Of a DNA stretch of 64,000 bases, positions 1,516 through 52,091 are shown in pieces. A program made the position numbers and the translations under genes. Origin of the DNA: Gimesia sp. (GTDB lineage Bacteria; Planctomycetota; Planctomycetia; Planctomycetales; Planctomycetaceae); NCBI GenBank assembly GCA_002706765.1, contig PAJV01000022.1:50711-114710 (forward strand). The letters run 5' to 3'. Below the pieces are notes generated by a model. The model was not told the origin of the DNA. It made no database searches and saw only the letters and a program-made list of their open reading frames with translations. The first letter of the stretch is position 1, and each line of letters begins with the position of its first letter.

Positions 1516-2109
1516 ATGTGGGATGAAAAATACAGCGCCGCGCATTACGTTTATGGAGAAGAACCAAATACTTTTTTGCAGGAACATATTGACTGCTTAC
1601 CCAAAGGCAAAATTCTCTGTCTGGCGGAAGGAGAGGGCCGGAATGCCGTCTTCCTGGCCCGGCAGGGATACAGCGTGACTGCCGTCGATGCTTCTGAAAT
1701 CGGTTTACAGAAAGCACGGCGTCTGGCAGGGAAACATCAGACCTCAATCGAAATTATCCATGCCGATCTGGCAAACTATGATCTCGGCGAAAACCGGTGG
1801 GATGGCATCGTATCCATCTTCTGTCATGTTCCCCAGGAGATCCGGAAACGAATTCACTCTCAAATTGCCGCGGGGCTGAAAACGGAAGGCGTTTTTCTGC
1901 TGGAAGCCTACACTCCCCAGCAGTTAGAATATGGCACAGGTGGTCCTCCCGATGTAGAATCAATGATGTCAAAAACTCGACTGCTGGAAGAAGTCTCCGG
2001 GCTGGCTTTCAGCCATCTGGAAGAACTGGAACACGTAATCATTGAAGGTTCCAATCACACCGGCATTGGTGCTGTCGTCCAGGCCATTGGTAAGAAACAG
2101 GATTCATGA
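1516..2109 (+). CDS. Class I SAM-dependent methyltransferase
   Basis: A 197-residue protein with a Rossmann-type SAM-binding core. Motif I is ILCLAEGEGRNAVFLA at about residues 35-50, followed by VTAVDAS, the acidic strand that binds the ribose. The N-terminus MWDEKYSAAHYVYGEEPN is typical of small TehB/UbiE-like methyltransferases whose substrate is unknown. I start at ATG 1516 because AGGAGAG lies just upstream and the family begins MW(D)xxY; the frame stays open further upstream to 1411, but that extension does not look like protein of this family. The stop overlaps the start of the next gene by four bases (ATGA), which suggests translational coupling. Confidence 0.88.
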   Translation: MWDEKYSAAHYVYGEEPNTFLQEHIDCLPKGKILCLAEGEGRNAVFLARQGYSVTAVDASEIGLQKARRLAGKHQTSIEIIHADLANYDLGENRWDGIVSIFCHVPQEIRKRIHSQIAAGLKTEGVFLLEAYTPQQLEYGTGGPPDVESMMSKTRLLEEVSGLAFSHLEELEHVIIEGSNHTGIGAVVQAIGKKQDS

Positions 2110-2699
2110 AAGCGATTCCGGCAACAGTACTTTTGTTCTTGATGTTAATGGGAATGCTCCCCGTTTCTGCAGTGGAGCCAAAATTAAAGCCCCACCCCGA
2201 CGCGGTCGCGAACACCCACGCTCCCGGCGAAGTCGATAAGCCGGAACTCGTGCCTTTCATCGTGGCCGATCCGACGAAGCTGAAAGGCATCGTCGTCGAT
2301 GAAACCCAGGCAAAGCTCATCGGCGTCTGGCAGTATTCTACACACACGCCCCCCTACGTCGGGCTCGGCTATCTGCACGATCAGAAAAAAGGGAAGGGGG
2401 AGAAAGCGGTGATCTTCACCCCCGATCTGCCAAAGGCCGGCCGCTACGAAGTTCGGCTCTCACACTGTTACAACATCCGCAGATCGACCAATACTCCGGT
2501 GACGATTCACCACGCCGAGGGTGAAAAAACGATCCGCATCAACCAGCAGCAGATCCCCGCACACAACAAACTGTTTCGCAGTCTGGGCACTTTCCGTTTC
2601 GATCAGGGCAAATCAGGCTGGGTGAAAATTTCCAACGACGGCACTGATGGCAAATACGTGATTGCCGACGCCGTGCAGTTTTTCTATGTCGGCGAATGA
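2106..2699 (+). CDS. Secreted protein with golvesin C-terminal-like domain
   Basis: A 197-residue protein with a signal peptide (hydrophobic LLFLMLMGMLP, cleavage near VSAVEP). After a short linker comes one domain from about residue 55 to the end. It shows the features of the golvesin/xanthan-lyase-type beta-sandwich: GIVVDETQAKLIGVW, then PPYVGLGYLHD, a strand AGRYEVRLSH, and the hallmark end YVIADAVQFFY. In planctomycetes this domain commonly ends FAD-dependent oxidoreductases and is thought to bind carbohydrate; here it stands alone. It overlaps the methyltransferase by four bases, so the two are probably co-transcribed. The exact ligand is unknown. Confidence 0.72.
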   Translation: MKAIPATVLLFLMLMGMLPVSAVEPKLKPHPDAVANTHAPGEVDKPELVPFIVADPTKLKGIVVDETQAKLIGVWQYSTHTPPYVGLGYLHDQKKGKGEKAVIFTPDLPKAGRYEVRLSHCYNIRRSTNTPVTIHHAEGEKTIRINQQQIPAHNKLFRSLGTFRFDQGKSGWVKISNDGTDGKYVIADAVQFFYVGE

Positions 2700-2773
2700 A
2701 CGTTTCGTGTGGTTTCGTGTCTTTTCGTGGTAGAAAATTTCATTTCAAGTGTTTCATCGGTTCCCATTCCGGG

Positions 2774-2832
2774 GTGAAACGGGTTTCTCCCTCGCCAGGC
2801 GGGCGGACACATGGGTACCGCCCCTACCGTAG
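2774..2832 (-). repeat. REP-B palindromic repeat
   Basis: Read on the minus strand this starts with GTAG, followed by a hairpin around the loop CCATGT (stem GGGCGG/CCGCCC), then the constant CGCCTGGCGAG and a degenerate AAACCCGTTTCA tail. Stem bases differ from the copies at 18991 and 19442 (GGGTCGAC/GTCGACCC), yet pairing is kept. Confidence 0.7.
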
Positions 2833-2869
2833 CAGGTTGGTGACCTGGAACCTGGATGTACGATTTCAC

Positions 2870-2920
2870 TGACAGTTTCCTGTTGTCTGCGACAACCCCG
2901 GATTACATCCGGGGGCACCC
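2870..2920 (-). repeat. REP-A palindromic repeat
   Basis: Minus-strand copy of the two-hairpin repeat. Hairpin 1 has the stem CCCGGAT/ATCCGGG around a 3-nt loop; hairpin 2 is GTTGTC-GCA-GACAAC; the unit ends AGGAAACTGTCAG. Confidence 0.75.
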
Positions 2921-3280
2921 TGTCTTTCTCATGAGCCGTTCAGCGTGAGACGCGGTTTCTGCAGGTCGGGAGACAACCGGAGCTAACGCTCTGCGGCTAA
3001 TTGAGAACGCTCTTCGGTTTATTACACTGCCACCACCCACTTTTACTTTCGTGTCTTTCGTGCATTTCGTGGCGGTAAAAAAGCCCGCTGCAGCAAATTC
3101 AGAAGTGAGTCTGCTAAACGAGAAAGCCGGGTTTTATTGTAAATATGACAAAATGAAATAATTTATCGATCAAAATCCTGTCCCGTACTATAACATGCGA
3201 GTTTGGATCACTCATGCGGAACCCTCTCTCCCAGCTTATTGTATTCTCCTCTCGTTCTGGATCGCATTACAATTAACCAT

Positions 3281-3350
3281 AGCGTCTCTCGATCTATGAT
3301 ACTCCGTCCAAATCGACTTGGAGACGCTACAATAAAACTGGACACAGTCT
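3281..3350 (+). repeat. 70-bp inverted-repeat element, left copy (flanks DUF6268 gene)
   Basis: The element starts AGCGTCTCTC, has an internal inverted repeat (AGCGTCTC paired with GAGACGCT about 32 bases later), and ends with an A-rich stretch and GGACACAGTCT. Its reverse complement recurs at 4427-4496 with roughly 60 of 70 bases identical by eye, so the two copies face each other across one gene. More distant copies lie at 48581 and 51332. Confidence 0.85.
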
Positions 3351-3372
3351 AAACTGATGTCATGGACGACTG

Positions 3373-4428
3373 ATGTTATTGTTACGACTCTTTTTAATCT
3401 GCTCACTTTTCGGATTTGCTTTCAGTATCCAACCGTATCTCTATGCGCAGACTGAAACGCCGGGATATGCCGACGCTTCAGAACCTTCGGAAACCGTACT
3501 GGCGGGATTCCTGCCCCTTGATCGCAGCCTGCGGGTGGAAGATGGCCTTCCCCTGGATGAGGTCCTACCACCGACGGAAGAACCATTTGAGGCAGAGAGC
3601 GATCAACCTTCCTCTCCAGAGCGACCACTAGATTTCAAATCTCTCATGAGACCGCGGTTTGACAGCTCAGCCGAATGGGAACCAGAGGTGGGTGGAGTGG
3701 GAATCAGTTCTTATGACTTGTCGATGAAGATACCCGTCTACCCGATTTTCGGACCCCCGCCTCCGTTTCTCAATTTCGGTTATTCGTTCACGCAGATCGA
3801 CGCTCCCGCCGCTCTGGATTTGCCCCAGAGTCTGAATGAATTTTCGTTCGGCATGTCTTGGATGCGCCCGATCAATGAAAAATGGATGGCCCGTTATATG
3901 CTGAATGGGGCATTCGCGTCGGACATGGATTATACCGGCAGTACTGCCTGGCAGATCCGAGGCGGCATGTTTGCCATGTATCGTCCCAATGAGACCTGGA
4001 ATTTTGCGTTTGGGGCGCTCGCCACCGGTCAAAGTGATCTTCCGGTGTTGCCGGTCCTGGGAGCGATCTGGCAGCCGCGACCTTCACTCAAAGTCGATTT
4101 AATGCTGCCCAATCCAAGAATCTCTCTGCTCGTGTCCGAGTCAGAGTCGCGTCAGCACTGGGCCTATGTTGGCGGCGGATTCTCGGGAGGCACATGGGCC
4201 TACCGACGCGCCAATGGACTGGGAGAGCGTCTCAACTATCGCGAGTTTCGCTTTGTCTTGGGATGGGAAGCCACTCCCCCCAAAAAGCCGGGAACCTTCG
4301 GTTCCAGTGGCACGACCATCAATGCAGAGATCGGCTACGTCTTCGGCCGCAAGTTTGAATTTGACAACAGTGTGCCCGACATCAAGATTGATAACACACT
4401 CCTGCTTCGCTCCGGAATCAGCTTCTAG
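3373..4428 (+). CDS. DUF6268-like outer-membrane beta-barrel protein
   Basis: A 351-residue exported protein. The N-terminus (LLLRLFLICSLFGFAFS, cleavage near LYAQ) is a signal peptide, followed by an acidic, proline-rich linker to about residue 100. The remainder is alternating aromatic/polar beta strands such as LNFGYSFTQIDAP, FSFGMSWMRPINEKW, GGMFAMYRPNETWNFAFG and GAIWQPRPSLKVDLMLPNP, which I associate with the DUF6268 family of planctomycete barrels. No enzymatic residues are visible, so its role in the outer membrane is unknown. The gene sits alone between two inverted 70-bp repeats, and its TAG stop is completed by the first bases of the right copy. No strong ribosome-binding site is visible before ATG 3373. 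Confidence 0.7.
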   Translation: MLLLRLFLICSLFGFAFSIQPYLYAQTETPGYADASEPSETVLAGFLPLDRSLRVEDGLPLDEVLPPTEEPFEAESDQPSSPERPLDFKSLMRPRFDSSAEWEPEVGGVGISSYDLSMKIPVYPIFGPPPPFLNFGYSFTQIDAPAALDLPQSLNEFSFGMSWMRPINEKWMARYMLNGAFASDMDYTGSTAWQIRGGMFAMYRPNETWNFAFGALATGQSDLPVLPVLGAIWQPRPSLKVDLMLPNPRISLLVSESESRQHWAYVGGGFSGGTWAYRRANGLGERLNYREFRFVLGWEATPPKKPGTFGSSGTTINAEIGYVFGRKFEFDNSVPDIKIDNTLLLRSGISF

Positions 4429-4496
4429 ACTGTGTCCCGTTTTAGCGTAGCGTCTCCAGTACCATTTGGAACGAGTATCATAGATTGAGAGACGCT
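4427..4496 (-). repeat. 70-bp inverted-repeat element, right copy
   Basis: Reverse complement of the element at 3281-3350. Its outer end (AGACTGTGTCCC) overlaps the last two bases of the upstream gene's stop codon. The internal stem AGCGTCTC/GAGACGCT is intact; most differences from the left copy fall in the loop and the A-rich spacer. Confidence 0.85.
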
Positions 4497-4604
4497 CCGG
4501 TTAAATGCGAAGCGCTCCTGACGGATCGTTGAAAATTAGTCTCACTTCTCTCTGCATACCATTTCGAAAACAGGTTGCTCACTTCTCTCGGACTATTTAA
4601 CGGT

Positions 4605-6131
4605 TCAATCCACCTGAGGCGGCAGGTTCCCGTATTCCCAGGGATTGTTGTTGAACGCGGGAGCAGCAGGCCGCTCAGCCAGTTTGTCGGGAGTCAGCTG
4701 TTTGGAAAGTTCGACTGCCGCGTCGACCATCTGCGGGCCAGCGGTGATTTCGAGGTTGCTGTAGCTGGAGAGCCGGGTTTCGTAACCCCCTCCGTTTTTA
4801 TCGAACGCTTCTTTCGTGGGCACGTATCCGACACAGCCGTTTGCCAGTGAAACCGGGAACGTGATCGGGAAGGGGCTGCCCTCCTTGATGTCCAGGCCGA
4901 GCTGACAGAAGAATTCTGCAGGGTCGGTTAACAGAACCACGGGCCCTAACTGGACGGCCTGCACTTCGACGTCGGCCACGGGCTCTTTTTCCAGGCGGGC
5001 TTCCAGCAGCAGCGTCTCTTTGGCGAAGATCCAGTTGGTGGCTCCCGCTTTGCCCGGTCCTGCTTTCACCTGTTCCAGCGCTTCTTCCAGATGTTCTTTG
5101 CTCGGTTTGCGACGGGGAATCTTCAGCATTTTCGTTTTGCTGGCGATGGTCTCAAAGTTGCCGCGCGGCATCGAGAGCAGAACCTTAACCGCTTCCGCTC
5201 CTACGCGACCGCCGACAAACCGTGATGAATCTTCACTGGGACGACGCTGATATTTTGAAAGGTTATCGACCTGCGTGACATCTCCCGAGGCCCCCGCCAG
5301 GAAAACCACGACCGTATCTTTTCCAAAGAAACCGCGAATCACCTGTTCGACATAATAAATGTAATTCGCCGAGATACCACCCGGGTTGGTCGTTGCATGA
5401 CAGACGAAGTTGACCAGACAACCTTTCAGATTCCCCTGTTCGTCCCAGACACCGATCACGCCGACTTCGGGATCGACCGGACCTGCCGGTTTGACAATAT
5501 CCGGATTGCCGGGGCGTGGATGAGTGTAGGTGATGCCGTTCCGCATCAGGAACCGGCGGTTAAAGGCGACCTGTTCCTCAATGCCCACACCGGCGCCACA
5601 CTCGGATGCACTCCGTTTCTGGTAGGCTTCACAGATCGCTTCAACTGACTGGTCAACGACTGTCTCCAGGTAGGCGGCGTCCGCATTGGAGGATTTGACA
5701 TAAGCCAGTTCCTGCACGAATTCGGAAGCGTGATCAAATTCGCCCGGAAGAATCATGCCCGTCGGTCCCGAGGAATGGGAATGCGTGGCATGCAGCAGAA
5801 TTGAACTCGCGGGAATTTTGCATTTCGCTTCCACGCGTTTGCGGATTTCTTCAACCGTGACGCGTCGAATGAGGAGCGCATCCAGGCTCACGACCGCAAC
5901 AACGTTCGTGCCATTATCAAAGACAGCTGCCCGTGTTTTACAGGGATCGTGAAAGCTTCGATGAAACGATTTACCATAACCGCCCGGCTGTTCCATGCCG
6001 ATTTCCGGCGTAATGTCACGTTCCGCAAAACCGACTTTGACCTGCGGCGTCTCAGCCGCGTGGATGTGAGTTGCTGTCAGAATCAGAACGCAAAGTGGGA
6101 CAGCTTTGAATAACAGGAGACGTATCTTCAT
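4605..6131 (-). CDS. Neutral/alkaline non-lysosomal ceramidase-like exported protein
   Basis: A 508-residue protein with a signal peptide (LLLFKAVPLCVLILTATHIHA). The mature N-terminus VKVGFAERDITPEIG and the motif LLHATHSHSSGP match the zinc-binding N-terminal domain of neutral ceramidases (PF04734); AGASGDVTQVD is a further conserved block. Characterised relatives hydrolyse the amide of ceramide, but planctomycete genomes carry many paralogues of unproven substrate. The C-terminal immunoglobulin-like domain of classical ceramidases is not evident, so this is the short form. It lies on the same strand as the two exported proteins to its right, but 565 bases of repeats separate it from the nearest. 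Confidence 0.82.
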   Translation of the reverse strand: MKIRLLLFKAVPLCVLILTATHIHAAETPQVKVGFAERDITPEIGMEQPGGYGKSFHRSFHDPCKTRAAVFDNGTNVVAVVSLDALLIRRVTVEEIRKRVEAKCKIPASSILLHATHSHSSGPTGMILPGEFDHASEFVQELAYVKSSNADAAYLETVVDQSVEAICEAYQKRSASECGAGVGIEEQVAFNRRFLMRNGITYTHPRPGNPDIVKPAGPVDPEVGVIGVWDEQGNLKGCLVNFVCHATTNPGGISANYIYYVEQVIRGFFGKDTVVVFLAGASGDVTQVDNLSKYQRRPSEDSSRFVGGRVGAEAVKVLLSMPRGNFETIASKTKMLKIPRRKPSKEHLEEALEQVKAGPGKAGATNWIFAKETLLLEARLEKEPVADVEVQAVQLGPVVLLTDPAEFFCQLGLDIKEGSPFPITFPVSLANGCVGYVPTKEAFDKNGGGYETRLSSYSNLEITAGPQMVDAAVELSKQLTPDKLAERPAAPAFNNNPWEYGNLPPQVD

Positions 6132-48554: not shown

Positions 48555-48580
48555 GCTTATATCGAATCACATTTAACAGT

Positions 48581-48650
48581 TGCGTCTCTCAATCTTTTAT
48601 GCTCGATGCAGATGGCCTGAAGACGCTGCAGTAAAACGGGAACTGGTCCT
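48581..48650 (+). repeat. 70-bp dispersed element (third copy)
   Basis: TGCGTCTCTCAATCT opens the element, AGACGCTGCAGTAAAACGGGA closes it; the stem GCGTCT/AGACGC is kept. It is more diverged than the pair near 3281 and 4427, mainly in the loop and at the right end. Confidence 0.7.
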
Positions 48651-51049: not shown

Positions 51050-51398
51050 CGGGAGTCCTTTCCCTCTTTCTCTTTAATAAAGCGGGTCGCTTAATTGTTT
51101 CAAACTCTTGTATGGTTACGCTTTAGGTGAATGGTGTGTTTCTGCCATCCGGGCGGGAAAGACACCAGATTCATGCTGAAGGTGGGGCAGTATATCGGGA
51201 AAATCGAATTTTGGAAACAGGAATTGAGCGGTTGAAAAGCGAATTATTTTGACGGTAATTTCACTCATGTCAGCGAAAATGAAGGACAGGCCGGTGACCG
51301 GCTGCGCTTGAGAGCGCATCACATTTCAACATCGCGACTCTCAATTTATTCAACTCAGGGCAACAGACCCTGTAGACGCGACAGAAAAAGGGACACGG
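51050..51398. other. Intergenic region holding the fourth 70-bp element copy
   Basis: No gene. The only structure seen is the dispersed element at 51332-51401; the rest has no recognisable motif. Confidence 0.5.
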
Positions 51399-51401
51399 TT
51401 A
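51332..51401 (+). repeat. 70-bp dispersed element (fourth copy)
   Basis: TCGCGACTCTCAATT through GTAGACGCGACAGAAAAAGGGACACGGTTA. The stem TCGCG/CGCGA replaces the AGCG/CGCT ends of the other copies, but pairing is kept. Its last bases supply the stop codon (TAA on minus) of the metW gene. Confidence 0.68.
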
Positions 51402-52091
51402 GTGTGTGATGGGCGTGGATTGACCCGTCGAAGTGTGATGGGAGGCAGGGAGTTCTGCCGGTCCTTCCACACGCTGCAGGACATAGAGGACATGCTGTGC
51501 CCGCAGGTTGGCGAGCCAGGCTTTTTCGACAGCCTGGTGATTGATGATCGGAACTTCCTGTAGAATTTCGATGCCCAGCAGGCGCATCAGATCCTGAAAA
51601 TCATGCATCGACATCAGGTGCAGGTTAGGGGTGTTGTACCATTCGTAAGGCAGAACTTCGGTAACCGGGGCGCGGCCCTGTTTGAGTACCTGCAGCCGAA
51701 TCCGCCAGTTCCCGAAATTCGGGACGACGACCAGCGCTTTTTTGGCGACCCGGACCATTTCTTCCAGCAACTGTTTGGGGTGCAGCACCTGCTGCAGTGT
51801 CTGACTCAGAACCACATAATCGAATGCGCCATCGGGGATATCCAGCAGTCCTTCGTCCAGGTCGGCCTGGATCACGGGCACGCCACGGGCGATGGCGGCG
51901 TGATGCTGAGTGATATCAATTTCGATGCCCAGAACGGAAGCATCCCGTTCTTCGCGCAGCCGCGCCAGCAGACGGCCATCACCACAGCCCAGGTCGAGCA
52001 CGCGACTGCCGGGCTGGATCTGTTCCAGCAGCAGCTTGTCGGTCACTTCCAGTGAAGGATCCTGCATACAGTATCGATGTTGAGCACGCAT
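51399..52091 (-). CDS. metW: Methionine biosynthesis protein MetW (SAM-dependent methyltransferase fold)
   Basis: 230 residues. The SAM-binding motif is SRVLDLGCGDGRLLARL, followed by VLGIEID and the block DYVVLSQTLQQVLHPKQLLEEM, both typical of MetW; VVVPNFGNWRIRLQVLKQGR and TPNLHLMSMHDFQDL match the family C-terminal part. MetW partners with MetX in the homoserine acetylation route to methionine. metX lies 17 bases upstream on the same strand. Its stop codon falls inside the right end of a dispersed 70-bp element. Confidence 0.92.
   Translation of the reverse strand: MRAQHRYCMQDPSLEVTDKLLLEQIQPGSRVLDLGCGDGRLLARLREERDASVLGIEIDITQHHAAIARGVPVIQADLDEGLLDIPDGAFDYVVLSQTLQQVLHPKQLLEEMVRVAKKALVVVPNFGNWRIRLQVLKQGRAPVTEVLPYEWYNTPNLHLMSMHDFQDLMRLLGIEILQEVPIINHQAVEKAWLANLRAQHVLYVLQRVEGPAELPASHHTSTGQSTPITH

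Follow-up and report, generated by a model that had tools for sequence, protein, structure and literature searches.

Two separately inserted copies of a probable IS630-type MITE flank a DUF6268 gene in Gimesia

In a Gimesia genome a gene for a DUF6268 protein lies between two inverted repeats, and the arrangement raises the question of whether gene and repeats belong together as a unit. The original prediction, made from the 64,000-nucleotide stretch of DNA analysed here (the window), was of a mobile cassette moved by a transposase acting in trans, or else of an invertible segment. The inverted repeats are real: 3281-3350 matches the reverse complement of 4427-4496 at 60 of 70 bases, repeat finding in the window gave arms at 3256-3351 and 4426-4521 that are 81% complementary, and the left copy (91 bases), used as a query against its own genome, recovered the right copy with an E-value of 3.8e-19, so that the pair is not due to chance. 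The repeats had, however, been given as 70 bp long; each copy in full measures 94 bp, with 76 of 94 positions identical between left and right (18 mismatches). The right copy had also been described as abutting the stop codon of the gene; this is correct but understated, since the stop codon, TAG (4426-4428), is formed by the first three bases of the copy. It is highly probable that the two repeats are copies of a non-autonomous IS630 (Tc1/mariner-type) MITE of about 94 bp that inserted separately, and that the gene between them stayed where it was. The features concerned are given in Table 1.

Table 1. Coordinates of the gene, its neighbours and the repeat elements in the window
Feature	Position	Strand	Remarks
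DUF6268 gene, 351 aa	3373..4428	+	PF19783, E 7.5e-9; resident of the locus, not cargo
Upstream neighbour, Golvesin_C domain	2106..2699	+	Synteny marker; adjoins the gene in 3 of the 4 sister loci fetched
Downstream convergent neighbour, ceramidase-like (below Pfam's cut-off)	4605..6131	-	Synteny marker; adjoins the gene in 4 of the 4 sister loci fetched
Left copy of the probable MITE, 94 bp	3258..3351	+	Ends TG (decayed TA) and TA; 21 bp upstream of the ATG at 3373
Right copy of the probable MITE, 94 bp	4426..4519	-	Outer TAG is the DUF6268 stop codon; far TA now CT
Left terminal inverted repeat of the left copy	3258..3288	+	Family consensus TAGAGCGCATCACATTTAACCATAGCGTCTC; end common to the intact IS630
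Right terminal inverted repeat of the left copy	3321..3351	+	Consensus read inwards TAGACTGTGTCCAGTTTTACTGTAGCGTCTC; 21/31 like the left one

The element was described from 152 records taken from 131 stretches, two of the records repeating the window's own pair. It is short and non-coding, and 144 of the 152 records fit a 94-position model without net gaps. Its terminal inverted repeats are imperfect, being 31 bp long with 21 of 31 bases identical between the consensus ends, and across the family the right end is better conserved than the left (mean 0.95 vs 0.91). TA is present at both ends in 91 of the 152 records; among those 91, the TA is preceded by C in 91% and followed by A or G in 91%. 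The target is C-TA-R, with the TA duplicated on insertion. Each copy of the window's pair has kept TA at one end and lost it by decay at the other, which counts against reading them as MITEs. Each copy is also an imperfect palindrome, and in the left copy TAGCGTCTC pairs with GAGACGCTA. An Rfam scan of 2500-5500 returned one sub-threshold match and none above a family's gathering score.

It is clear that the element is abundant. With a covariance model, 150 out of 150 scored candidates passed in the own genome (worst E 2.1e-8, from 2,392 first-look candidates), giving at least 150 full-length copies, and the 150 listed copies are divided into 75 per strand. A search of the same genome with the left copy gave at least 40 scored matches among 177 candidates, and the consensus pattern, with up to 3 mismatches allowed, occurred at 53 places and the reversed pattern at none. 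Two more, more diverged copies are present in the window at 48,557-48,650 and 51,309-51,402. When the covariance model was applied to 40 genomes (the own genome, 16 more of the genus and 23 others), the element was found in 17/17 genus genomes and 0/23 others, at 1 to 56 copies in 14 of the genus genomes and at least 105 in three. Among named records, an exact match to the conserved right end was found in one contig of an uncultured Gimesia MAG and in four of the Planctomycetaceae MAG HKST-UBA69. For the 150 listed copies in 7.9 Mb, 4 pairs of neighbouring copies within 1.2 kb were seen (2 of them inverted), against 3.4 expected. Close pairs therefore occur at chance frequency, and the bracket around the gene is likewise due to chance.

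Other arrangements of the element were seen elsewhere in the genus. Locus L148 of genome G014 (about 1200-1490) holds three head-to-tail copies with a 92-bp period and the TA shared; this tandem perhaps arose by insertion at an element's own end. A half element, consisting of the right end only, is present in loci L233 and L234 (about 1471-1512 and 1494-1532), from genomes G012 and G005, and the one in L233 is located at the stop codon of a 402-aa ORF.

The past of the locus was read from sister genomes. Orthologues of the gene are present in four genomes of the genus, at 91, 87, 83 and 81% identity, and gene order and orientation are conserved. At the position of the left copy all four sister genomes aligned (G008, G014, G016 and G013) have an empty site with continuous flanks; they carry AA where the window has the target TA, which counts against the MITE reading. 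G008, the nearest relative, has the right copy. In the other three its site is empty, and the gene terminates in TTC TAA (G014), TTC TAG (G016) and TTT TAG (G013). These empty right sites carry a single TA, in relatives without the element, and the bases behind them resemble the window's flank well in G014 and less so in G016 and G013, as judged by eye. Since the right copy is shared with G008 and the left copy is in none of the four, the right copy predates the split from G008 and the left copy postdates it. The two copies are separate insertions made at different times, and the gene was not moved with them. Depending on the species, the gene is found with two, one or no repeats, and thus the ends and the gene are not present or absent together.

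Remoter DUF6268 matches from five further genus genomes (59-64% identical, L036-L040) have no element in the stretch fetched. In locus L060 of genome G007 an element (about 1264-1356) occupies the TTC TAG terminus of a DUF6268 gene only distantly related to that of the window (27% identity); this is an insertion apart from the window's right copy. Other repeated sequence is also present near the locus. Another dispersed repeat, ACAACCGGAGCTAACGCTCTGCGGCTAA, lies at 2973-3000 and occurs at 12 places in the genome including its own (up to 2 mismatches), the reversed pattern occurring at none, and a stretch like it is visible in sister loci. The TTTCGTG-rich stretch TTTCGTGTCTTTCGTGCATTTCGTGG lies at 3047-3072, with similar sequence near 2703-2730 and in sister loci; when its pattern was searched for with as many as 3 mismatches allowed, the window gave one match and shuffles none.

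The sister genomes bear directly on both readings first proposed for the locus. If the DUF6268 gene and both repeats moved as a composite unit, served by a transposase in trans, then two like elements in inverted orientation with one gene between them would be the expected arrangement, and this is what the window contains. Against this, the gene keeps the same orientation and neighbours in four sister genomes, none of which has the left repeat, the repeats differ in age, pairs as close as this are expected by chance, and the 1.2-kb unit has no second copy in the genome, where the only other DUF6268 matches are 29% and 25% identical. Nor is the unit as a whole absent from sister genomes: the gene is in place in all four, of which one is without the left repeat and three are without both. 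Repeats conserved in place with no empty site are not what was found either; empty sites exist, for each element alone and not for the gene. For the past of this locus the cassette is ruled out by the sister genomes, and as an account of the locus it is very improbable. What stands of that prediction is the mobility, which the empty sites demonstrate, and very probably the action in trans; the gene as cargo does not.

The alternative of an invertible segment, in which recombination between the repeats would flip the gene as an on/off switch, draws on the inverted repeats at both sides of the gene and on the position of the left repeat between a conserved upstream block and the ATG. However, the gene has one orientation in the window and in all four relatives, with no inversion seen, both repeats are missing from three of these relatives, and the copies differ by 18 mismatches. 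On the evidence of the sister genomes we regard inversion as having hardly any chance of being correct.

If the element is a MITE, it would need a transposase from elsewhere, and two intact-looking IS630-family copies were found, in G016 and G001. Each measures 1,025 bp from TA to TA, is flanked by C...G and has open frames of 122 and 223 codons. In the G016 copy two overlapping frames encode an HTH protein (111 aa, matched by HTH_Tnp_IS630 and further HTH models) and a DDE_3 protein (213 aa). Each end of the IS agrees with the left end of the MITE at 24-25 of 27 bases and with its right end at 16-18 of 27, the second comparison counting against the relationship. The own genome has five DDE_3 matches, and two of these loci, 99.9% identical to each other over 1.8 kb, lie in truncated IS630 copies; the truncated IS has a left end like that of the MITE at 16/17 bases and diverges from the intact IS before the right end. 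The first reading frame of the own-genome IS630 has relatives in 11 of the 40 genomes. No IS630 with the right end of the MITE was found among the places examined in a pattern search of 7 genomes, or on scanning of the DDE_3 loci; of the three right-end pattern places fetched, one was a MITE and the other two, from different genomes, were the same partial element. An end of intermediate type, differing from that of the IS by 5 mismatches, is carried by a relic in the own genome (L063). Two further results count against the partnership: G008, despite its 105 or more copies of the element, lacks any DDE_3 match, and in G014, whose copies are the most uniform of those sampled, that IS is represented only by broken pieces. 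Another DDE_3 gene in G014 is without such ends in the fetched stretch. Judged from sequence, the element is, or was, very probably mobilised in trans, with a transposase of IS630 type as the putative agent.

Two derivatives of the IS were also noted. Locus L067 of G008 holds, at about 1420-1937, a 517-bp IS630 derivative with the middle deleted and both ends kept, and this intermediate between IS and MITE illustrates how such an element would shrink. The own genome and two others of the genus have in common, at 98.9% identity, a 2.4-kb stretch comprising the truncated IS630 and its flanks (L065, L068 and L069), a finding suggestive of a mobile island that they share.

A palindrome of the REP/BIME type, spread by a REP-associated tyrosine transposase (RAYT), would also be high-copy, mostly extragenic and hairpin-forming, and the consensus of the Gimesia element has GTAG and CGTC. 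As described in PMC3733652, REPs tagged with GTAG or CGTC are abundant extragenic palindromes, mostly downstream of coding regions, and the GTAG-tagged kind is reported from the Planctomycetes superphylum. The Gimesia element is likewise an abundant extragenic palindrome, but it is 94 bp long with terminal repeats and a TA target, whereas REPs are 20-40 bp, and one of its ends is common to IS630. Of the 2 Y1_Tnp matches in the genome, neither had a copy of the element in the 3.2-3.3 kb locus fetched, so that no link with a RAYT was found and this origin is unsupported; we consider it most improbable, and the IS630-type MITE remains the preferred reading.

Insertion contexts were classified for 128 of 150 non-duplicate records (61 from the own genome, G000, and 67 from G014), 22 being dropped for their ends, edges or length. 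The sites sampled are those of better conserved copies, from 70 fetched loci of G000 and 60 of G014; ORFs of at least 100 codons were called by a simple script, not a gene finder, with the flanks joined around one TA. The element was found in the TA of a stop codon at 29 sites, between ORFs at 88 and inside ORFs at 11. Outside ORF bodies, the proportion in stop codons (29/117) compares with 112/2,914 when every TA site of the stretches concerned is counted (p 1e-14). Relative to CTAR sites (24/279) the excess is 3.5-fold in odds (p 3e-5), and relative to TCTAR sites (14/109) it is 2.2-fold (p 0.017). Much of the stop-codon excess thus follows from the target motif and a modest part remains; with this fall, a claim of general stop-codon targeting is weakened. 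Both ends of the element begin with TAG, so that a stop codon is restored whichever way round the element goes into a TAA or TAG.

When 10 of the 29 stop-codon genes, picked partly by their ends, were scanned, 6 were found to encode DUF1559 pilin-like proteins. The element lies exactly at the stop codon of such genes in loci L010, L013, L026, L111 and L113 of G000 and L146 of G014. Among the 150 listed own-genome elements, 9 start 54-63 bp behind a DUF1559 domain match; the set comprised 135 matches, partial ones included, and the 9 include one remnant that scores below the cut-off and has an internal stop. A CTAR stop is present in 11 of the 30 best DUF1559 matches (two with the element), compared with 4 among 37 long ORFs of the window, and the frequency of such stops in DUF1559 genes would account for much of the association. 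It is tentatively possible that, with TAG at both ends and a C-TA-R target, stop codons serve the element as safe harbours: it would spread from stop to stop, the conserved ends of genes of the very large DUF1559 family (...GEF or ...GEY, then TAA or TAG) would be recurrent landing sites, and many genes would acquire the same new 3' hairpin. Among the papers listed in a literature search, judged by titles and the openings of abstracts, none dealt with a Gimesia MITE or with MITEs that target stop codons.

The stop-codon excess that survives the strictest motif control could also mean that the element is retained because it benefits its host, perhaps by supplying a promoter, or a portable hairpin placed before or behind genes. 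As DNA, the left copy folds better than its shuffles (z -3.3), whereas the value for the right copy is only z -1.9. A promoter-like TTAACC-16 bases-TATGAT is present in each copy of the pair, at 3273-3300 and 4504-4477, the left one pointing at the DUF6268 gene; over the region promoter-like matches number 4, two of them in the elements, against 1.3 in shuffles. No intrinsic terminator was predicted in either copy. Furthermore, the CTAR motif together with selection against insertions inside genes accounts for much of the excess, and the presence of the element varies between close species. A host benefit is therefore unlikely, and any effect on the DUF6268 gene would be hypothetical.

The MITE family of Gimesia is new, and its kind is known, with RUP of the pneumococcus as a direct precedent. 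As described in PMC2229807, RUP of Streptococcus pneumoniae is 107 bp long, has 108 copies, is intergenic and has a TA target, and its terminal repeats are like those of IS630-Spn1, which is proposed to move it in trans. The Gimesia element is also short and many-copy, with a TA target and a terminal repeat like that of an IS630. The hosts are unrelated, however, the imperfect terminal repeats are about 30 bp as against 9 in RUP, a close match to the IS found is limited to one end, and many of the Gimesia insertions are in stop codons. For ISY100, duplication of TA on insertion is reported in PMC2170065, and the title of a reference therein gives the target preference of IS630 as TA within CTAG, a site that resembles C-TA-R. 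The Gimesia IS is like IS630 and ISY100 in having its HTH and DDE_3 proteins in two reading frames; the Gimesia element differs in being geneless, and must borrow its transposase. MITEPsy1 of Pseudomonas syringae, a 100-nt MITE with CTAG or YTAA as target according to PMC3189936, is similar in size and target but makes a four-base duplication and has another suggested parent, the IS5-type ISPsy2.

The locus very probably arose as follows. An IS630-family transposase made elsewhere would bind the terminal repeats and excise the element, which would be joined at a TA, preferably within C-TA-R, and the TA duplicated. A first copy entered the TA of the DUF6268 stop codon before the split from the nearest relative, and a second later entered the leader of the gene, at what was probably a CTAA, its opposite orientation being a matter of chance. 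An insertion in TAA or TAG that leaves a stop codon would be harmless to the protein and, being presumably neutral, could persist.

The striking look of a gene bracketed by inverted repeats is thus ordinary chance in a genome full of one MITE. The locus provides an ordered pair of insertions and a candidate IS630 partner for a planctomycete genus. The habit of inserting in stop codons would be a simple way for a transposon in compact bacterial genomes to spare genes, and it predicts the sites at which new copies may be found.
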